The notes under the pieces are model-generated. The model was given only the letters and a program-made list of their open reading frames with translations, ran no database searches and was not told the origin of the DNA. Below are positions 5,555-36,181 of a DNA stretch of 45,090 nucleotides, one piece after another (the stretch's first letter is position 1; the number at the start of each line of letters is the position of its first letter). This stretch comes from a virus: positions 1-45,090 of the IMG/VR virus record IMGVR_UViG_3300030101_001354; one strand, 5' to 3'. The position numbers and the translations under genes are program-made.

Positions 5555-5980
5555 TTACATACTATATTTAGATAAATTAAAGGTTGGGTCTAATGTCTTA
5601 GGACTTTCTACCTTCATAATTATCTGGTCATCATATAAAAGAATATATTTTATTCCTTTATATTGTATCTTTTGACCTGCATGTTTACCATAACATACAT
5701 AGTCATTTAATTCACACCAAGGTCCTTTAGGAAACTTTTCCATATCATGATAAGCTAAATCACCCATAGCAACAACTTGTCCTACTGTAGTAAGATAAGC
5801 CATATCATCTCTAGTAGAGTCTGGTAATAATATACCACCTTTAGTTTTTTCTTTTACTGAAACAGGTCGCACTAAAATATGATACCCAGGTAAATCTGGT
5901 AACATATCTGGATTAGGTATTTCTTCTTTAGAAATCCAAGCATCATTTTTAATACTTTTTGCCATGTTTACTTGTTGCAT
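5555..5980 (-). CDS. groES: Co-chaperonin GroES-like protein
   Basis: This 141-aa protein has the GroES core from about residue 32: GYHILVRPV, then the mobile-loop region KEKTKGGILLPDS (43-55) with the GroEL-contacting GGIL, then VGQVVAMG and a C-terminal YKGIKYILLYDDQIIMKV. Cellular GroES is about 95 aa; this one has an N-terminal extension of about 30 residues and a short C-terminal tail. It would cap the host GroEL ring for folding phage proteins, as T4 gp31 does for the T4 capsid protein. Its place next to the capsid genes fits. Start and stop overlap the upstream gene (TAATG). Confidence 0.88.
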   Translation of the reverse strand: MQQVNMAKSIKNDAWISKEEIPNPDMLPDLPGYHILVRPVSVKEKTKGGILLPDSTRDDMAYLTTVGQVVAMGDLAYHDMEKFPKGPWCELNDYVCYGKHAGQKIQYKGIKYILLYDDQIIMKVESPKTLDPTFNLSKYSM

Positions 5981-6773: not shown

Positions 6774-8237
6774 CTAGTTACTTTCTTGTTGAGCATCTTG
6801 TAAAATAGCTTTAGACATTATATCTAATAGTTTCATACTTCTTTCTCTATCATCTAAAGTTTCCATACTAGCTACTTTTTCTAAAGACTGTGCTCTTATT
6901 TTTTCTAAATCTATTTGTGTTTTTTGTTCTGCTATTTCTGACTTTGCAATTAAATCTAATAGCTTCATAGTTTCTTTACTTTGTCTATCAAGGTCAGCTT
7001 TTTCTTTTCTTAACATAGCAGATTGTCCTGCAACTCCTGCATCTTTCATTAACTTAGCTTCTTCAAGCTGTAGCTTTTGAGCATCTAATGAAGATTCTAC
7101 AGATAGTTTTGCTTCTTCCATTTTTAATTCTTTTTCTTTTAATCCTACTTCAGCTTGTTTTAACGCAACTAATTGTTGTTCAGGTGATTGTGCCTGACCT
7201 AAAGCTTGATTAGCATTTAATACTTGTTGTGCTGCTTGAGCCATAGCCATCTCTGCTATTGTAGGAACTTGTGCTTGTTCTGGTGGTAACTGTTCTAGTC
7301 CCATTCTTGTAATACCATTTACTTGTTCTTGATAACGCATTACAGAATGTTCTTGAATATTAGCTTCTAATATTGGTTTTAATCTAGCCATAATAGGATT
7401 AGCACCATTCTTAGGGTCTTGTAAATATGCCATCTTTGTTTGAATATGAGCATCATGATTTTGACCTTCAAAAGCTTTTATTGGAATACCTTTTGTTGCT
7501 GCCATAATATCTGATATTGGGTCCATAGGTTGTGGTTCTTTTTTAGGTGGTAATATCTGTTCTATATTAGGCATATTAGCAGCATTTAAAATTGTTCTAT
7601 TTAATGCTTCTATATTAAACATACCAGGAGGGGATTGCTGTGCCATTTGGAGAGCCATTTGAGCTAGCATCATCCTATGTGCATTAGAAGGAATGTTAGG
7701 GTCTGAGACAGGGATTACATCAACCCTTCCATCAAAATCTTTCTTAAACACACTTTGTTCAGCATAAGGTACTTCATAAGGATACTGCATAGGTAAATAT
7801 TCTGAATCTATACGAGCAAGAATTTTAAATTCTTCTCTTTGTGATTTATGTAATCGTTTATGTATAGCTGAGAAAAATTTACTAGAAGCTTCTAATAAAG
7901 CCATAGTGGTTCCAACAGGACCATAAGATGCTGCATCAGAAACAATTTGTTCTGTGCTATCAGCAAACTTTTGACCTGCTGCTGTAACGAAACCTAGCAT
8001 CTGAAATAGAGTAGAGGAAGGCTCTTTATAGGGGAGAGGAATAATTGCCTTACTAAGGTCTACTCCAGTTGCTTCGATTTCTTTAAATTCACCAGGACTT
8101 ATTGGTTCATTATCGCCAACAAGTCTAACACCTTTTGCTTTAAAACCTCCTGGTAAGTTTGCAAATTGACCTGCGTCTACTAAGCTTCTCATAGCTGCTG
8201 TTGCAGTCATAGTTAAGTTGCCTAGAAAGTGCATCAA
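6774..8237 (-). CDS. Portal protein, C-terminal part (shifted frame)
   Basis: This frame continues the portal gene after an apparent frameshift near 8296-8299. Read in this frame from just before the listed ATG, the sequence gives KISHFVHYRFVPGFGFYGFG and then MHFLGNLTMTATAAMRSLVD, a typical portal core. The later part is an acidic, Gln-rich coiled coil (EQQLVALKQAEVGLKEKELK). The ATG at 8237 is most likely not a real start. Joined with the upstream part the portal would have about 842 aa. Portals form the dodecameric DNA entry ring at one head vertex. Confidence 0.75.
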   Translation of the reverse strand: MMHFLGNLTMTATAAMRSLVDAGQFANLPGGFKAKGVRLVGDNEPISPGEFKEIEATGVDLSKAIIPLPYKEPSSTLFQMLGFVTAAGQKFADSTEQIVSDAASYGPVGTTMALLEASSKFFSAIHKRLHKSQREEFKILARIDSEYLPMQYPYEVPYAEQSVFKKDFDGRVDVIPVSDPNIPSNAHRMMLAQMALQMAQQSPPGMFNIEALNRTILNAANMPNIEQILPPKKEPQPMDPISDIMAATKGIPIKAFEGQNHDAHIQTKMAYLQDPKNGANPIMARLKPILEANIQEHSVMRYQEQVNGITRMGLEQLPPEQAQVPTIAEMAMAQAAQQVLNANQALGQAQSPEQQLVALKQAEVGLKEKELKMEEAKLSVESSLDAQKLQLEEAKLMKDAGVAGQSAMLRKEKADLDRQSKETMKLLDLIAKSEIAEQKTQIDLEKIRAQSLEKVASMETLDDRERSMKLLDIMSKAILQDAQQESN

Positions 8238-9301
8238 GCCAAACCCATAAAATCCAAATCCAGGAACAAATCTGTAGTGGACAAAATGGGAAATCTTTTG
8301 TTGTAGTTTCTTCTAATACTTAAAACAGTTTTAGATTGCTCTTCCACAGTAACAATGTAGGGAAGAGCATAGTCTTCATCTATCTCTAAATAACAATGTT
8401 GTTCTAGTAATGTATATTGTGGGTCACTATTATCTGTAGGAGATAATCCTAAAATAGTATCCATCTTTTCTGATAAAGATGTAGGACTAGGATAAGTTGC
8501 TTCAGGTAAATCTATATCATCATAAATACCTGTACGCATATCTTTTGCTAAATCTACTGGACTTCTATAAATAACATGTGTATATCTGTCTGCTTTATTT
8601 AGATTAGAAGCATAGTAAGAAACATAAAATTGGTCTATGGGAATAAACTCTGATACTGGTCTTTTTAAATTAGCATCATAGTAAACTTTTTTAAATGCAG
8701 AACCTATTAAAGGTAAATGAAATAACATTCTTTCAAACTCATCAAAGTATTCTGGCATCTGCTCAGTTACTTGATAGTTCATAAAATCTTTTACTCTATT
8801 AGATTGTAATTCTCTTTCAGGAGTTACCTTTCCTAATATCTGTGTTTTAACTGGACCATTTGCAGGAAACATTTCTTGTATAGCTTTAGATTGAAACTTA
8901 ACTGCTGATTCAATTAACATAGGATGTACTGCTGTACATGCACCTTCAAAAGGTTCAGAGGTATCTTGTATTTTTAATCCTAATAAATCAAATCCTCTTT
9001 CAAACATAGACTCCCATTCTGCTCTAGAATCTTTATCTGCTGTATAATTATTAACAACATCTTCTGCTATTTTTACTAACTCATCTTCTTCTAAAGTATC
9101 TGCAATGTTACCATACCATTCTTTCATTTCACCTTCAGGTTCCATCTCTATATTTACTTCAGTAAAATCTACAGTAACTCCTCCATCTTCATCTGCTTCA
9201 AAAGTAGGAGACCCTGCTGCTTCTTTAAGTTGTTCTGGAAGTTTTACTACGTTTGATATTGTTTCCTCTATTTTATCAAATGGATTTTTTTCTATTGCCA
9301 T
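8234..9301 (-). CDS. Portal protein, N-terminal part (ends at apparent frameshift)
   Basis: The reading frame has 355 codons, of which about the first 335 look like portal (RAEWESMFERGFDLLGLK, EPFEGACTAVHPMLIESAV, IGSAFKKVYYDANLKRP, PIDQFYVSY). The final residues after NYNKR are out of frame: the conserved continuation lies in the -1 frame and starts at the A-run 8296-8299. One extra A there would restore one continuous ORF from 9301 to 6774. The start overlaps the stop of the upstream gene (TAATG). Confidence 0.78.
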   Translation of the reverse strand: MAIEKNPFDKIEETISNVVKLPEQLKEAAGSPTFEADEDGGVTVDFTEVNIEMEPEGEMKEWYGNIADTLEEDELVKIAEDVVNNYTADKDSRAEWESMFERGFDLLGLKIQDTSEPFEGACTAVHPMLIESAVKFQSKAIQEMFPANGPVKTQILGKVTPERELQSNRVKDFMNYQVTEQMPEYFDEFERMLFHLPLIGSAFKKVYYDANLKRPVSEFIPIDQFYVSYYASNLNKADRYTHVIYRSPVDLAKDMRTGIYDDIDLPEATYPSPTSLSEKMDTILGLSPTDNSDPQYTLLEQHCYLEIDEDYALPYIVTVEEQSKTVLSIRRNYNKRFPILSTTDLFLDLDFMGLA

Positions 9302-27668: not shown

Positions 27669-28235
27669 ATGATTGAAGAAATATTTAAACCATTATACAT
27701 AGTTAAAGATGGTAGTCTTTTTAGAGCAAAAGGCTATGAGATTAGTAATCATGGTAGATTAAAAAGTTTAAAGATAAATAAAATAAGAAAAAGAAGTCAC
27801 GAAAAAGATGTTAATAGACCTAACAATAAAGGATATATTAAGTATGGTATTTCATTAGATGGTTATATAAACAATCAAGCTAAGAGTAAAAAAAATTATA
27901 ATATAAGAGAGCATAGAGTAGTAGCTATAAACTTTATACCTTTTGATTTATATGATAAATATGATTGGTGGCATGCTATACCTAAACATTTTCAAATACA
28001 GTTTGGTATATTAAATCATCAAGTCAATCATATTGATGGGAATATACATAATAATTTAGTAACTAATTTAGAGTGGGTTACTCCTCAACAAAATACTAAA
28101 CATGCCTATTCTCTTTTTGATTATAAAAAACATTCAGAAAGAATGAAAGAACATATAAAAAAAGTAGTAGAAGAAGGAACATTTAAAGGTAAAAATAATC
28201 CTATGTACAGACATGGAAAAAATACATTAAATTAA
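27669..28235 (+). CDS. HNH homing endonuclease (free-standing)
   Basis: This 188-aa protein has an N-terminal NUMOD4-like segment (YEISNHGRLKSL), a central HNH core (NHQVNHIDGNIHNNLVTNLEW, about 115-136) and a C-terminal NUMOD3-like FKGKNNPMYRHG. Free-standing enzymes of this type cut phage genomes that lack the gene and so spread. It lies between exonuclease and small genes without splitting any, and has AAAGGAAAAAAA before the ATG. Confidence 0.88.
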   Translation: MIEEIFKPLYIVKDGSLFRAKGYEISNHGRLKSLKINKIRKRSHEKDVNRPNNKGYIKYGISLDGYINNQAKSKKNYNIREHRVVAINFIPFDLYDKYDWWHAIPKHFQIQFGILNHQVNHIDGNIHNNLVTNLEWVTPQQNTKHAYSLFDYKKHSERMKEHIKKVVEEGTFKGKNNPMYRHGKNTLN

Positions 28236-29152: not shown

Positions 29153-31064
29153 TTATTTACCAACAGAATATCAGACGTTTATACATGCATCTAGATATGC
29201 ACGTTGGTTACCTGATGAGGGTAGAAGAGAAACATGGATAGAAACAGTATCTAGATTTAGTAATTTTATGCAGATACATTTAAAAAAAAATTTAGATGTT
29301 GAAATAGATAGTGAGGTATGGAGAAAAATAGAAGATAGTATTATAGGTTTATCTGTTATGCCATCTATGAGAGCATTAATGACTGCAGGTCCTGCTTTAG
29401 AAAGAGAAAACATAGCAGGATATAATTGTTCTTACATACCTATTGATAATCCAAAAGCATTTGATGAAGTATTATACATACTTATGAATGGTACAGGTGT
29501 AGGGTTTTCTGTTGAAAGACAATACATAGATAAACTACCCACTATACCAGATAGAGAGTTTGAAAAAACAGATGATGTTGTTTCTGTTAGTGATTCAAAA
29601 GAAGGTTGGGCAAGAGCATTTAAAGATTTAATATCTTATCTTTATACTTGTAGAATACCAAAGATAAATGTTAGTAAGGTGAGACCTGCAGGAGATAGAT
29701 TAAAAACATTTGGTGGTAGAGCAAGTGGTCCTCAACCCTTAGTTAATCTATTTGATTTTACTATTGAGAAGTTTAAAAATGCTAGAGGTAGAAAGTTATC
29801 CTCTATGGAGTGTCACGATATTGTGTGTAAGACTGGTGAAGTTGTGGTTGTAGGTGGTGTTCGTAGGTCAGCTCTTATATCTCTGTCTAACTTATCAGAC
29901 CAGAGATTAAGAGTTGCTAAGTCTGGTGCATGGTGGGAAACTAATCCAGAAAGAGCATTAGCTAATAACTCTGTAGCATACACAGAGAAACCAGATGCAG
30001 GTATCTTTATGAAAGAATGGTTAGCATTATATGAAAGTAAATCTGGTGAACGTGGTATCTTTAATAGAAAGTCTGCTCAAGAAAAAGCTAGAGAAAATGG
30101 TAGACGTAATGGTGATTGGGACTTTGGTACTAATCCTTGTAGTGAAATTATATTAAGACCTAATCAGTTTTGTAATTTAACAGAAGTTGTATGTAGACCA
30201 AGCGACACAGAAGATATGCTGCATAATAAAATAGAGGTAGCTACTATATTAGGAACAATACAAGCTACTCTAACAGATTTTGGTTATCTTAGAAAAAGAT
30301 GGCAAACAAATACAGAAGAAGAAAGATTATTAGGTGTATCTCTCACAGGTATTATGGACAATAGTTTATTATCTAGAATGAGAACTCCTTTACCAGAATT
30401 TTTACAAAAGATGAGACAAAAAGCTGTAATAGTAAATAAAGAATGGGCTAAAAAATTAGGTATACCACAGTCAACAGCTATTACATGTGTTAAACCTTCT
30501 GGTACAGTTAGTCAATTAGTTGATAGTGCTAGTGGTATTCATGCTAGACATAATCCTTATTACATTAGAACAGTAAGAGGAGATAAAAAAGACCCATTAA
30601 CACAATTTATGGCAGAGCAGGGTATACCTTGTGAAGATGATGTTATGCAACCTAATAACTCTGTATTTTCTTTTCCTATGAAGACAGAACCTGGTGCTAT
30701 ATACAGATATACTATGACAGCTATTGAACAATTAGAGATATGGAAGTGTTATGCACAGCATTGGTGTGAACATAAACCATCTGTGACTATATCTGTTAAA
30801 GAACATGAATGGATTAATGTGGGTAACTGGTGTTGGGATAATTTTGAAACATTATCTGGTATATCTTTCTTACCTTTTTCAGACCATACATATCAACAAG
30901 CACCTTATCAAGACATAGATGAAATGCAATATAAAGAATTAGAATCTAAGATGCCTAAGAATATTGATTGGTCTTTATTACAGAAGTATGAAACAGAAGA
31001 TAATACAAGAGGTTCACAAGAGTTAGCATGTAAAGCAGGTTCATGTGAATTGGTTGATATATAA
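29139..31064 (+). CDS. nrdJ: Ribonucleotide reductase, class II (adenosylcobalamin-dependent)
   Basis: This 641-aa protein makes deoxyribonucleotides from ribonucleoside triphosphates or diphosphates. Cys97 (GYNCSY), Cys334 and Cys345 (NPCSEIILRPNQFCN) fit the redox and thiyl cysteines, and the 11-residue spacing matches Cys408/Cys419 of the Lactobacillus enzyme. The C-terminal CKAGSC (Cys631, Cys636) matches its mobile redox pair. No small subunit gene is present, which fits class II. The N-terminus (RYARWLPDEGRRETW) is typical and shows no ATP cone. It needs host or environmental B12. Confidence 0.92.
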   Translation: MAGNNYLPTEYQTFIHASRYARWLPDEGRRETWIETVSRFSNFMQIHLKKNLDVEIDSEVWRKIEDSIIGLSVMPSMRALMTAGPALERENIAGYNCSYIPIDNPKAFDEVLYILMNGTGVGFSVERQYIDKLPTIPDREFEKTDDVVSVSDSKEGWARAFKDLISYLYTCRIPKINVSKVRPAGDRLKTFGGRASGPQPLVNLFDFTIEKFKNARGRKLSSMECHDIVCKTGEVVVVGGVRRSALISLSNLSDQRLRVAKSGAWWETNPERALANNSVAYTEKPDAGIFMKEWLALYESKSGERGIFNRKSAQEKARENGRRNGDWDFGTNPCSEIILRPNQFCNLTEVVCRPSDTEDMLHNKIEVATILGTIQATLTDFGYLRKRWQTNTEEERLLGVSLTGIMDNSLLSRMRTPLPEFLQKMRQKAVIVNKEWAKKLGIPQSTAITCVKPSGTVSQLVDSASGIHARHNPYYIRTVRGDKKDPLTQFMAEQGIPCEDDVMQPNNSVFSFPMKTEPGAIYRYTMTAIEQLEIWKCYAQHWCEHKPSVTISVKEHEWINVGNWCWDNFETLSGISFLPFSDHTYQQAPYQDIDEMQYKELESKMPKNIDWSLLQKYETEDNTRGSQELACKAGSCELVDI

Positions 31065-31375
31065 TGACTAATAATAATTTAAAAGAAAATATTATAGATG
31101 TATTACAAAAAGTATATGACCCTGAGATACCTATTTCTATATATGATTTAGGTTTAATATATGATGTAGATATAAAAGAAAATAATAATGTTGACATTCT
31201 TATGACTCTTACTACACCACATTGTCCAGTTGCTCAAGATTTACCAAAGCAAATAGAAGATGAAGTAGCAAAGTTAGAAAAGGTTAATATAGTTAGAGTT
31301 GGTATTACTTGGGACCCACCTTGGACACAAGATATGATTTCAGAAAGTGGTAAACTAGAATTAGGATTAATGTAA
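31064..31375 (+). CDS. SufT / MIP18-family iron-sulfur assembly protein
   Basis: This 103-aa protein matches the DUF59/MIP18 family along its whole length: DPEIPISIYDLGLIYD (19-34), TLTTPHCPVAQ with the conserved Cys54, and VGITWDPPWTQDMISESG with LELGLM at the end. Cellular members (SufT, PaaD, MIP18) help to insert iron-sulfur clusters into target proteins. It overlaps the reductase stop (TAATG), so the two are translated together. Likely clients are the Cas4-like exonuclease or host iron-sulfur proteins; the reductase itself is not an iron-sulfur enzyme by sequence. Confidence 0.85.
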   Translation: MTNNNLKENIIDVLQKVYDPEIPISIYDLGLIYDVDIKENNNVDILMTLTTPHCPVAQDLPKQIEDEVAKLEKVNIVRVGITWDPPWTQDMISESGKLELGLM

Positions 31376-31594: not shown

Positions 31595-32032
31595 ATGTTT
31601 GAAGTAGATACATTTTCAAGACAAGCTATTGGCTTTGATAGATTGTTTGATGTAATGAATAATATAAAAGGGACAGATACAAACTATCCACCTTATGATA
31701 TTATAAAAGAAGATGAAGAAACTTTCTTGATAGATTTTGCTCTATCAGGATTTAAAAAAGATGATTTGAATATAGTTGTAAAAGAAAATCATTTAACTAT
31801 AGAAGGTACTTATGGTAGAACTTTTTCTCAAATGTATTTAGACGATTCAAAAGGAAAAGAGGAGCCAGAATACTTATATAAAGGTATTGCTAAGAGGTCT
31901 TTTACTAGGGACTTTGTTCTAGCAGACACGTTACACGTTGAAGACGTTACATTCAGCGAAGGTATATTGAGAATAACTCTCAAACAGATTGTACCTGAAG
32001 AACAAAAACCTAAAAAGATTAAGATTAATTAA
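31595..32032 (+). CDS. hsp20: Small heat shock protein (Hsp20 family)
   Basis: This 145-aa protein has the alpha-crystallin domain: PPYDIIKEDEETFLIDFALS, GFKKDDLNIVVKENHLTIEG, IAKRSFTRDFVLADTLHV and the final GILRITLKQIVPEE. An I-x-I type KKIKIN ends the chain. Such proteins hold unfolded proteins without ATP. Similar genes occur in T4-like cyanophages. Here it is a single-gene unit with its own promoter and terminator. AAGGAGATAAATAT precedes the ATG. Confidence 0.92.
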   Translation: MFEVDTFSRQAIGFDRLFDVMNNIKGTDTNYPPYDIIKEDEETFLIDFALSGFKKDDLNIVVKENHLTIEGTYGRTFSQMYLDDSKGKEEPEYLYKGIAKRSFTRDFVLADTLHVEDVTFSEGILRITLKQIVPEEQKPKKIKIN

Positions 32033-32039
32033 GTTATAA

Positions 32040-32071
32040 GGGGAGTTGTAAAAGGCTCCCCATTTTTTTTT
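32040..32071 (+). terminator. Intrinsic terminator after hsp20
   Basis: GGGGAG (32040-32045) and CTCCCC (32056-32061) form a stem with a ten-base loop, followed by A and nine Ts. Confidence 0.85.
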
Positions 32072-32080
32072 GGAGAAGAA

Positions 32081-32875
32081 ATGCACGTGTTATTAAAGAA
32101 TCAAATGGTAAACACAGTTTACGTAGGGTATGACCCTAAAGAACATACTGCTTATGAGGTATTAAAATTTTCATTAGAAAGAATATCCACTAAACCTGTT
32201 AGAGTTATACCTTTGAGAAGAGATATACTTACAAAGATAGGTATATATACTAGAAAACATAATAGTATAAGTGGTCAAGATTATGACGAGATAGATGGTA
32301 AACCTTTTTCTACACAGTTTAGTTTTAGCAGATTTTTAATACCTGCATTAAATATGTATGAAGGTTTAGCTTTGTATATGGATTCTGATATGTATGTAAG
32401 GTCAGATATATCAGAACTATTTGATATGTGTAGTGATAATTATTATGCTATACATGTAGTTAAACATAAGTATGAACCTAAAGATAAAGTTAAAATGGAT
32501 GGTAAAGAACAACATATATATCCTAGAAAAAACTGGTCTAGTTTAATTATGTTTAATTGTGGTCATGAGTTAAATCAAAAACTTACACCACAAGAAGTAA
32601 ATACTAAATCAGGTAGATGGTTACATACATTTCAATGGCTTCCAGAAAAAGAAGCAGATATAGGTTCAATACCAGAAGAATGGAATTGGTTAGATAATCA
32701 TTCATCTGCTGATTTAAATGCAAAGAATGTTCACTTTACTACAGGTGGTCCTTGGTTTAAAAACTGGGGTTCTAAAAGAGATATAGATAATAAGTATGCT
32801 ATTGAGTGGAGTAATGATGCTCAATGGCTTCAAATGCAAGGTATACTAGATGTTAATAAGGACTATGTAATATGA
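32081..32875 (+). CDS. Glycosyltransferase, GT8-like
   Basis: This 264-aa protein has the GT-A pattern: VYVGYDPKEHTAYEVLKFSL, FSFSRFLIPALNMYEGLALY and MDSDMYV with the metal-binding DSD (Asp101, Asp103), then IMFNCGHEL and a late HFTTGGPWFKNW. It would move a sugar from a nucleotide sugar to an unknown acceptor. GGAGAAGAA precedes the ATG directly behind the hsp20 terminator. It overlaps the next gene by four bases and forms a cassette with two further glycan/methyl-type proteins. Confidence 0.8.
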   Translation: MHVLLKNQMVNTVYVGYDPKEHTAYEVLKFSLERISTKPVRVIPLRRDILTKIGIYTRKHNSISGQDYDEIDGKPFSTQFSFSRFLIPALNMYEGLALYMDSDMYVRSDISELFDMCSDNYYAIHVVKHKYEPKDKVKMDGKEQHIYPRKNWSSLIMFNCGHELNQKLTPQEVNTKSGRWLHTFQWLPEKEADIGSIPEEWNWLDNHSSADLNAKNVHFTTGGPWFKNWGSKRDIDNKYAIEWSNDAQWLQMQGILDVNKDYVI

Positions 32876-35169
32876 AAATAAATTTTGTTACATCTTTTAA
32901 TGAAGATTTATACAACAGATTTGGTTCTTTATTTTTTAAATCTATTTATGAAAATTGGGAACCTACTTTAAAAGTAAAAGCTTATTATCATAATTTTCCT
33001 GCTGATAAATATTCATTAGAGAAACATATTAGTTATACAAATCTTGAAGACCATAGAAAGTATAAAAGATTTGTAGAAGAAAATGCTGTTCATAATGGTA
33101 CAGAAGATGGACAGATACCTTATAATGATAAACTTGATGCTATTAAATGGTCACATAAAATGTTTGCTTTAACTGACCATGCTTTTACATTAGCAGAAAA
33201 AGATAAAGAACCAGGTTGGTTAGTATGGATTGACGTTGACTCTTATGCTACTAAAAGATTAACACAAAAAGATTTAGAAAAAATATTAACTGATAATGTA
33301 GATATAGTGCATACAGGTAATCATTCTTTTATCGCTTTTAATTTAAATAAAAAACCACCACTAGATTTACTGTGGGATTTAAGAAGAACTTATATGAATG
33401 GTGAGGTTATACAGTATAGAGAATGGACAGATAGTTTTATTCTTGAAAGACTTTTAAATATATATAAAGCTCATGGTTTAAAAATAGAAGATGTTAGAGA
33501 CATTATACCTACTTATATACTACATATGGCAGGAGCATCTAGCTCTAGTATATTACCACTTAGAGATTCTAAAGGTAATCGTGTGTTTGAGTTATCAAAA
33601 GATAAAGTATCACAAGATATTAGACCTGCAAGATATGAAAGAAATGCAGAGCTTATAAGACATTTTAAACCTAAAACTATATTAGAAACAGGTACATGGA
33701 ATGGTGGTCGTGCTATTGAAATGGCATTAGCTGCTTTTGAAAATACAGATAAAGTAGAATACTATGGTTTTGATTTGTTTGAAGATGCTACAATAGAAAC
33801 AGATAAAGAAGAGTTTAACGTTAAAGCACATAATACTTTAGAAGCTGTAGAAAAAAGATTAAAAGATTTTGCTGAGAAGATGAAAGAAAAAAATAAAACA
33901 TTTAATTTTGTTTTAACTAAAGGTAATACAAGAGAAACATTAAAAGCTGAAAACTTATTTAATTTTTTACCAGACATTGACTATGCTTTTATAGGTGGTG
34001 GCGATAGTATAACTACAAAACAAAGTGATTATAATTGTTTAAAACATATATCTGTTATTGTATTAGATAATTACTTCTCTAAAGATAAAGATGGTAACAC
34101 AGTTAAACCAGAATATTGTGGAACAAATAAAGTAAAAGATAATTTATCTAAAACTATTAAAAATAATATTATACCTAGTGAAGATAAAGTTAGAGATGGT
34201 GGTAATACACATTTATTATTAATAGTGAATGATAGTAAATTACCATCTCCACCTAGACATTTATTTAGTGTACCTATTAAGGTAAATCCTAGAGATTGTG
34301 TACCTAAAGATTACATAAGAACTAATATTAAAACTAATTTTAAATTAATAGATAGATGGTTAGGTAAGTTCCCTATGCATGATACAAAATGTATTATAGT
34401 ATCAGGTGGACCTTATACAGATTATGCAGAATTACATGCATTAATTAAAGCTAATCCTACAGCAAAGATAGTAGCTGTTAAACATTCTTATCCTAAACTA
34501 TTAGAACATAATATAAAACCTTGGGCATGTGTAGTATTAGACCCTAGACCTATTACAGGCACAAGTACACATGGTGTAGTAAGAAAAGATTTATTTAAAA
34601 ATATAGACCCAAGCACTAAATTTTTTGTAGCTTCTATGACAGACCCTTCTGTTACTAATTATTTAATAGAAAGAAAAGCAGATATATGGGGATGGCATGC
34701 ATTTACAGAATCATTACGTGACCCTGAAGAACAAAAAAAAGGTATACATAATAACACAGTAACTCTTAATAAAGATTTAGGATTACCTGAAGGCACTACA
34801 TTAATAACAGGTGGTACGTGTGCAGCTATGAGAGCATTAGGTATTATGCATACTATGGGTTTTAGATTTTTTGAATTATTTGGTTACGATTCTAATATGA
34901 AGGAACCAACAGAAGAACAAAAGAAAGAAACAACAGGTGCTGAAGATGAAGAACCAAGACCAAAGTATTTTAAAGTGTCTGTTGGTAAAGAAGAGTTTTG
35001 GACTACAGGTGAATTACTTGCTTTAGCTCAAGACTGTGAAAAATATTTTAATGAATCACCTATGGAGATGGATATTAATTTTCATGGTAAAGGAACTTTA
35101 GTTTCTGCTTTATGGAAATTATCTAGTAGATATAAATTAAAACAACAATCATTTAAGGGAGATTTGTAA
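32872..35169 (+). CDS. Three-part fusion: glycosyltransferase-like, methyltransferase-like, MptE/DUF115-like
   Basis: This 765-aa protein has three regions. Residues 1-250 are GT-A-like with WIDVDSYATK (Asp121, Asp123). Residues about 255-460 look like a class I methyltransferase with ETGTWNGGRAIEMAL (272-286), YYGFDLFE and DYAFIGGGDS, where families of this type more often have DGGH. Residues about 500-700 match MptE/DUF115 and flagellin-glycosylation (Maf) proteins: CIIVSGGPYTDYAELHAL (507-524), HNIKPWACVVLDPRP, and GGTCAAMRALGIMHTMGFR followed by FFELFGYD. All parts point to sugar or nonulosonate chemistry on a surface or virion target; the reaction is not known. Start and stop overlap neighbours. 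Confidence 0.65.
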   Translation: MKINFVTSFNEDLYNRFGSLFFKSIYENWEPTLKVKAYYHNFPADKYSLEKHISYTNLEDHRKYKRFVEENAVHNGTEDGQIPYNDKLDAIKWSHKMFALTDHAFTLAEKDKEPGWLVWIDVDSYATKRLTQKDLEKILTDNVDIVHTGNHSFIAFNLNKKPPLDLLWDLRRTYMNGEVIQYREWTDSFILERLLNIYKAHGLKIEDVRDIIPTYILHMAGASSSSILPLRDSKGNRVFELSKDKVSQDIRPARYERNAELIRHFKPKTILETGTWNGGRAIEMALAAFENTDKVEYYGFDLFEDATIETDKEEFNVKAHNTLEAVEKRLKDFAEKMKEKNKTFNFVLTKGNTRETLKAENLFNFLPDIDYAFIGGGDSITTKQSDYNCLKHISVIVLDNYFSKDKDGNTVKPEYCGTNKVKDNLSKTIKNNIIPSEDKVRDGGNTHLLLIVNDSKLPSPPRHLFSVPIKVNPRDCVPKDYIRTNIKTNFKLIDRWLGKFPMHDTKCIIVSGGPYTDYAELHALIKANPTAKIVAVKHSYPKLLEHNIKPWACVVLDPRPITGTSTHGVVRKDLFKNIDPSTKFFVASMTDPSVTNYLIERKADIWGWHAFTESLRDPEEQKKGIHNNTVTLNKDLGLPEGTTLITGGTCAAMRALGIMHTMGFRFFELFGYDSNMKEPTEEQKKETTGAEDEEPRPKYFKVSVGKEEFWTTGELLALAQDCEKYFNESPMEMDINFHGKGTLVSALWKLSSRYKLKQQSFKGDL

Positions 35170-35774
35170 TGAAACCCTCACAAGAGTATCATGATTTAAT
35201 TGATTCATATAAAGTATTACATCAAGAAGAAGGTAAATTTAAAGGTATTAGTTTAGTACCTCTTGTTCCTACTCTTATACATCTTATTAAAGAAAATAAA
35301 TGTAAAACATTATTAGATTATGGTTGTGGTAAAGCTATACCATATGATAAAGAAAGATGTAAAGAAGTAGATTTAAGAAATCCTATACAAGAATTATGTA
35401 ACTTAAAATCATTTAATTTATATGACCCTGCATATGAAAAATATGCAACACTACCTGATAAAAAATATGATATTGTAGTATGCACAGATGTACTAGAACA
35501 TATAGCAGAACAAGATATAGATTATGTATTAACTGAAATATTATCTCGTAGTAAAAAAATAGTATTTTTAAATATATCTTGTCAACCTGCATTAAAACAT
35601 TTTAAAGAAGGTAAATTTAAAGGCAAAAACGTACATATATCTGTGTTTGACCCTTCATGGTGGATGCATAAGATAGGAAATATTTGGAATAAATTTAATC
35701 ATTTAAAAGTATACACTTTATGTGAGACTAAAGAAGGAACACATGCTACGTGTATTAAAAAGGAGAAAGAATAA
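35169..35774 (+). CDS. Class I SAM-dependent methyltransferase
   Basis: This 201-aa protein has LLDYGCGKAIPYDKE (motif I), then DIVVCTDVLEHIAEQDIDYV (motif IV region, typical of methyltransferases acting on small molecules or sugars) and KIVFLNISCQPA. It is not a DNA methyltransferase by motif (no NPPY/DPPY). TAATG overlap with the fusion gene and with the holin gene makes it part of the same operon. Confidence 0.78.
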   Translation: MKPSQEYHDLIDSYKVLHQEEGKFKGISLVPLVPTLIHLIKENKCKTLLDYGCGKAIPYDKERCKEVDLRNPIQELCNLKSFNLYDPAYEKYATLPDKKYDIVVCTDVLEHIAEQDIDYVLTEILSRSKKIVFLNISCQPALKHFKEGKFKGKNVHISVFDPSWWMHKIGNIWNKFNHLKVYTLCETKEGTHATCIKKEKE

Positions 35775-36181
35775 TGGCACTAACTGCACTAATAGGACCT
35801 GCTAGTAAATTACTTGGCAAGTTTATAAAAGATAAAGATAAGCAGATGCAACTTGCTCATGACCTATCCACTATGGCAGAGAAGCATGCACAAGAATTAG
35901 CTAAATCACAAATAGAAGTAAATAAAGAACAAGCAAAACATCCTAGTTTATTTGTATCAGGAGCACGACCTGCAATAATGTGGGTATGTTGTCTTGGTTT
36001 ATTATGGCAATTTTTTGTAGGACCAATTTTAACATGGGGTACAGGTATATGGATGCCTGATGTTGTACCTCCACAGCTAGAAGTAGAAGGATTAATTACA
36101 TTAGTAATGTCACTTTTAGGACTTGGAGCAATGAGGTCTTTTGAAAAATCAAAGAATGTAGCAAGAGATAATTTAAAGTGA
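35774..36181 (+). CDS. Holin, 3-TM GTA type
   Basis: This 135-aa protein has an N-terminal amphipathic helical part and then SLFVSGARPAIMWVCCLGLL, WQFFVGPILTWG and LEVEGLITLVMSLLGLGAMRSFEK. This matches the three-helix holin family known from gene transfer agents and marine phages (PF11351 type). It forms lesions in the inner membrane to let the lysin out and end infection. AAAAGGAGAAAGA precedes the ATG. It is on the plus strand while the likely lysin is on the minus strand. Confidence 0.82.
   Translation: MALTALIGPASKLLGKFIKDKDKQMQLAHDLSTMAEKHAQELAKSQIEVNKEQAKHPSLFVSGARPAIMWVCCLGLLWQFFVGPILTWGTGIWMPDVVPPQLEVEGLITLVMSLLGLGAMRSFEKSKNVARDNLK

Follow-up and report, generated by a model that had tools for sequence, protein, structure and literature searches.

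What would a phage do with a single protein in which three enzyme-like parts, usually found separately, are joined? The question is raised by a 765-aa ORF in IMG/VR record IMGVR_UViG_3300030101_001354, an uncultured virus with 31% G+C whose whole sequence of 45,090 bases is hereafter called the window. An initial annotation, made from the sequence alone, had read this ORF as a fusion of glycosyltransferase-, methyltransferase- and MptE/DUF115-like parts. On its minus strand the window carries head, portal, terminase and ejection-protein genes, and on its plus strand genes for a primase/helicase, a family A polymerase, a ribonucleotide reductase, Hsp20, a holin and a small terminase. Among cultured phages, pelagiphages are the closest, HTVC027P by its large terminase (40%) and HTVC103P/104P/115P by their polymerase (47%). 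The virus is thus a podovirus-like phage, perhaps with a SAR11-like host, as judged from terminase and polymerase relatives that are too distant for naming a host.

Several other genes of this genome deserve mention. The portal gene occupies two adjacent ORFs (6774-9301, minus strand) that match successive parts of phrog_1216 and therefore looks frameshifted, either by sequencing error or genuinely. A GroES-like (Cpn10) gene (5555-5980, minus strand) lies within the structural module, and together with the Hsp20 gene (31595-32032), found 5' of the candidate glycan cassette, it brings to two the chaperones of this small phage. An HNH_3 endonuclease ORF (27669-28235, plus strand), probably a homing endonuclease, sits amid the replication genes, and a small iron-sulfur assembly protein, FeS_assembly_P (31064-31375, plus strand), is encoded 3' of the ribonucleotide reductase gene and was missing at some of the related loci.

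The fusion gene (32872-35169, plus strand) begins with ATG, has no internal stop and contains the motifs WIDVDSYAT, ETGTWNGG, GGGD, SGGPYTDYAELHAL and WACVVLDPRP. Domain 1 (residues 1-235; 32872-33576) is of the GT-A glycosyltransferase type, domain 2 (residues 249-455; 33616-34236) is a class I SAM methyltransferase resembling Methyltransf_24, and domain 3 (residues 467-750; 34270-35121) is MptE-like/DUF115 according to Pfam, a model of its own and Foldseek. An AlphaFold model of the whole protein, built with 25 aligned relatives, reached a mean pLDDT of 82, with confidence dips near residues 221-245 and 461-480 that coincide with the domain borders. When this model was compared with the PDB by Foldseek, matches were obtained to Maf (5MU5), to O-methyltransferases and to GT6 or LARGE1 glycosyltransferases. 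Since domain 3 alone yields neither of the last two kinds of match, these arise in the first 460 residues, within which their exact position is presumptive. No convincing PHROG family was found for any of the three domains.

This layout is widespread. Among the IMG/VR loci fetched, at least 219 complete ORFs (122 distinct sequences, forming 35 clusters with as many representatives at 85% identity) display the same glycosyltransferase-methyltransferase-MptE order. In disjoint close pairs, copies with the changed sites described below included, dN/dS was 0.08-0.16 in each of the three domains, so that none is decaying and all are under purifying selection. These values and the 219 homologues rule out a chance ORF; the probability that the fusion is an assembly artefact is negligible, as complete copies in the same order came from many independent metagenomes. 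The ORF, its motifs and its homologues in other viral contigs thus confirm that three kinds of part are joined in one phage protein, and the expectation that structure prediction would separate them is borne out by the confidence dips and by the three kinds of Foldseek match. Profile searches proved less even: the MptE-like part scored above its Pfam cut-off, while Methyltransf_24 stayed below its own in the window and the glycosyltransferase part matched no family.

Domain 3 is the most conserved of the three, with 61% mean identity and 72 of 284 positions invariant. Pfam MptE-like (PF01973) matches residues 484-674 at 47.8 bits (cut-off 34.6), and all other fusion copies tested are above this cut-off too. 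Modelled alone (pLDDT 87), the domain was matched by Foldseek to Maf 5MU5 (E 2e-8) and to the M. jannaschii MptE kinase 8SD5 (E 1.8e-5), GT6 enzymes and O-methyltransferases having no meaningful E-values. By profile and fold, the fusion is therefore a DUF115/MptE-like protein, and its C-terminal part does not belong to an unrelated fold. The further comparison with Maf flagellin-glycosylation proteins does not extend to the whole protein. Maf 5MU5, a flagellin nonulosonic acid transferase from Magnetospirillum, shares its fold with domain 3 and is weakly similar by profile, but the fusion has GT-A and methyltransferase domains in place of Maf_flag10_N and of the C-terminal helical domain. Maf_flag10_N (PF20157) gave no Pfam match in the fusion, against 145.6 bits in a cellular Maf control, and the fusion ends directly after its MptE-like domain. 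The Maf N domain has been reported as weakly methyltransferase-like (PMC11339370); the idea that the methyltransferase and MptE-like parts together make up a Maf was rejected, as hhalign against Maf N domains returned 0.5%. With both flanking Maf domains absent and a methyltransferase part unlike Maf N, the fusion is not a Maf.

A pterin diphosphokinase (8SD5) has the DUF115 fold as well, so domain 3 could have a chemistry other than sugar transfer. PF01973 is named for MptE, the 6-hydroxymethyl-dihydropterin diphosphokinase with which domain 3 shares both Pfam family and fold, and the M. jannaschii enzyme was the second PDB fold match. That domain 3 would make an activated pterin or another diphosphate unrelated to glycans is nevertheless improbable: Maf 5MU5 ranks first by structure and also, non-significantly, by profile, and domain 3, unlike MptE 8SD5, is fused to glycosyltransferase and methyltransferase domains in a phage cassette with glycosyltransferases, where another such gene nearly always lies beside it.

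The glycosyltransferase part is the least conserved (46% mean identity, 21 of 235 positions invariant) and found no glycosyltransferase family in Pfam and no significant sequence match in the PDB. Its assignment comes from structure: GT6 alpha-1,3-galactosyltransferase and LARGE1 are among the full-model Foldseek matches and absent from those of domain 3 alone, so that domain 1, as modelled, has a GT-A fold, the aligned residues being putative. The WIDVDSYAT motif, from which a GT-A part had been proposed, does contain a DxD motif (D121-V-D123; 33232-33240, plus strand), which is kept in most copies and changed in two clades, to NTN and to DP[HML]. In the two clades devoid of the glycosyltransferase DxD (L126, L133, L137 and L149; L147, L219 and L223), dN/dS is still low.

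Domain 2 presents a different situation. Methyltransf_24 matched residues 271-391 of the window copy at 19.5 bits, below the cut-off of 26.3, versus 40.2 and 43.8 bits in copies of the sister clade that retains the DGGH site described below. SAM-binding motif I, ETGTWNGGRAI (residues 272-282; 33685-33717, plus strand), is conserved with minor changes in all 122 distinct sequences, across which the pattern E[TVI]G[TA]WN[GA]G and the acidic residue of G[FY]DLF are kept. With O-methyltransferases among the full-model matches, the methyltransferase assignment first made from ETGTWNGG is upheld. So is the suspicion that a metal-site-like DGGH had become GGGD: the change, at residues 375-378 (33994-34005, plus strand), is real and clade-wide. 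DGGH occurs in 7 of the 35 representatives, always with D-D at 399-400, and GxG[ND] (GGGN, GSGN or GGGD) in the other 28, with D-N or D-H. The metal-site combination of DGxH with DD or DN is thus missing from domain 2 of the window, which has GGGD for DGGH and DN as the second pair. In cation-dependent O-methyltransferases the Asp at this place binds the metal, and the residue three places on is the catalytic base in COMT. Residue 375, which aligns onto the metal-binding Asp of PDB O-methyltransferases, is Gly in the window. On a tree built solely from the MptE-like part, DGGH and GxG[ND] are separated by one change, and DGGH is taken as ancestral because the wider Methyltransf_24 family matches it, a polarity that comes from the family and not from the tree. 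Judged by sequence criteria, the methyltransferase part is a full family member solely in the DGGH clade.

The genes adjoining the fusion shed light on this change. Upstream lies a GT8-like glycosyltransferase gene (32081-32875, plus strand; Pfam Glyco_transf_8, 25.2 bits; PHROG 28018), which overlaps the fusion by 4 bases. Where the sequence reached far enough to tell, it was found at this place in 100 of 111 distinct loci, among them 87 of the 89 that belong to the altered-site clade, and it mostly overlaps or abuts the fusion. A terminator-like hairpin (32040-32061, plus strand) lies between the Hsp20 gene and this cassette, a weak signal as four such sites occur in the region versus 3.0 expected by chance. 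Downstream, a separate class I methyltransferase gene (35169-35774, plus strand; Methyltransf_23, PHROG 24759) shares 1 base with the stop codon of the fusion and is followed by a holin gene (GTA_holin_3TM; 35774-36181, plus strand). All 86 distinct altered-site loci that extend far enough downstream have such a separate methyltransferase gene 3' of the fusion, in most cases with an overlap, while none of 21 DGGH loci has it, a small terminase gene or short ORFs standing there instead. The simplest reading of these sequences is that the separate enzyme may have taken over methylation while the fused domain changed its role; as the site and the gene content each changed once, on one shared branch, the swap counts as one event and carries no statistical proof.

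A fused methyltransferase that is still active, through a metal site rebuilt from N/D378 and H/N400, would account for the co-variation of the two positions, DGGH always going with D-D and GxG[ND] with D-N or D-H, and would agree with the conserved SAM motif and acidic residue and with a dN/dS of about 0.16 for this domain. We regard it as rather unlikely, given the Gly at the position of the metal-binding Asp and the separate methyltransferase gene in every altered-site locus checked.

Homologues in which the parts occur apart indicate that they are real, separable domains. A two-domain form of about 540 aa, with glycosyltransferase and MptE-like parts and no methyltransferase, was found at 28 loci (23 complete), and the glycosyltransferase part is encoded alone in Mosig_00189 and L299-L303 and, as a cut copy, in L304. 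At two loci the fusion gene is split in two, frameshifts being the simplest reading, and at one further locus a 179-aa piece of the C-terminal part is encoded separately. Pelagibacter phage Mosig EXVC030M belongs to the Kyanoviridae; there, the stand-alone homologue of domain 1 adjoins a homologue of the GT8-like gene, as separate genes, and the DUF115 part was not found in the cassette. Located 3' of the two-domain fusion (L270:8827-9738 and L153:5644-6474) are members, about 300 aa long, of an uncharacterised and possibly GT-B-like family that by eye resembles a gene of the Mosig cassette.

Scans of IMG/VR recovered at least 531 relatives of the C-terminal part in marine viral contigs. In contrast, tblastn of the whole protein against 50,697 phage records gave no match at the thresholds used, nor did an outgroup C-terminal part against phage records, and a first genome scan found no cellular relative. 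The sole yield of a second genome scan, two phage-like contigs in MAGs, was excluded from host assignment as probable misbinning. One database entry, A0A6J7X5Q0 (BFVD; uncultured Caudovirales phage, 714 aa), is 27% identical in a full-length alignment of 783 columns (E 1.7e-53) and most likely shares the three-domain layout of the window fusion.

Drawing on the observed domain composition, conservation, genomic context, site change and gene swap, we infer, with a probability of about one half, a glycan-assembly enzyme that works together with its two neighbours, the GT8-like transferase and the separate methyltransferase, and probably decorates the virion, its activity, donor and acceptor being predicted. 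The GT-A domain and the DUF115 domain, the latter with a Maf/sialyltransferase-like fold, would each transfer a sugar, the GT8-like neighbour would add a further one, and a SAM methyltransferase would cap or modify what they make. The fused methyltransferase of the window lineage keeps its SAM pocket and has lost the canonical metal and base residues; methylation was probably passed to the separate enzyme of the adjacent gene, so that the fused domain would now serve as an altered enzyme or a scaffold. Stepwise building of a short glycan, in whatever order of steps and from whatever donor sugars, is suggested by overlapping genes that encode a methyltransferase along with two or three transferases belonging to distinct fold classes. 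Several points count against this reading: no gene for making a donor sugar was recognised in the window, the glycosyltransferase part lacks a sequence match to a curated glycosyltransferase family, and in the window clade the replication strand ends with the cassette, which lies outside the structural strand. To these are added the pterin diphosphokinase within the DUF115 fold and the single occurrence of the gene swap, both noted above.

The likeliest acceptor would be a virion protein. The closest single-domain relatives found for domain 3 (L319/L331 and L322/L332; profile probability 99.5%, E 3e-23) are unfused genes of about 270 aa, with sulfotransferase neighbours in one case, and in prophages such genes lie between terminase, sulfotransferase and head-tail adaptor genes, or between portal and tail genes. 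A virion acceptor is favoured because these relatives sit in prophage head/tail modules, and also because the two-domain cassette sits between a very large ORF (1,400-1,900 aa) and the holin gene, on the strand opposite to the ribonucleotide reductase gene. This large ORF has no PHROG match, which makes a virion role for it a guess. In one alphaproteobacterial prophage (L331:4650-13078), two sulfotransferase genes and the DUF115 gene are located between the terminase and the head-tail adaptor, a gene content which suggests that the virions of this prophage may be sulfated or glycosylated.

The main rival is that the cassette alters a host-surface glycan (LPS or capsule), either blocking superinfection or freeing progeny from receptors. 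Its position on the replication strand, beside the holin gene and away from the structural strand, is in line with such a role, as is the comparable cassette with methyltransferase, sulfotransferase and glycosyltransferase genes of a cultured Pelagibacter myophage. With the closest single-domain DUF115 relatives lying within prophage head/tail modules, and no membrane-anchoring or acyltransferase gene recognised adjoining the fusion, we hold this alternative as possible and tentative. Within virion decoration, a more specific proposal is a so far undescribed machine for glycosylating virions. It would join a sugar transferase of the Maf fold to a GT-A enzyme, and its own methyltransferase would have turned into a non-catalytic scaffold after a separate methyltransferase gene assumed the task; we consider this proposal unlikely as a whole.

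The three kinds of domain and phage glycan cassettes are already known, and A0A6J7X5Q0 is an unannotated entry of the same layout, described solely as 'Methyltransferase domain containing protein'. In the literature searched, open-licence papers on DUF115, MptE-like proteins and phages, no description was found of the fusion family, its spread, its two-domain form or the methyltransferase swap. The fusion gene occurs in hundreds of marine viral contigs, yet escaped tblastn in the phage records. The intact-site clade, the altered-site clade and the two-domain form provide natural controls for the role of each domain. If the scaffold proposal were true, it would represent a natural replacement of an enzyme by a pseudoenzyme in a very common group of marine viruses, of which no cultured member is known with the fusion. 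If virions or hosts are indeed decorated, a common modification of ocean phages goes unstudied.
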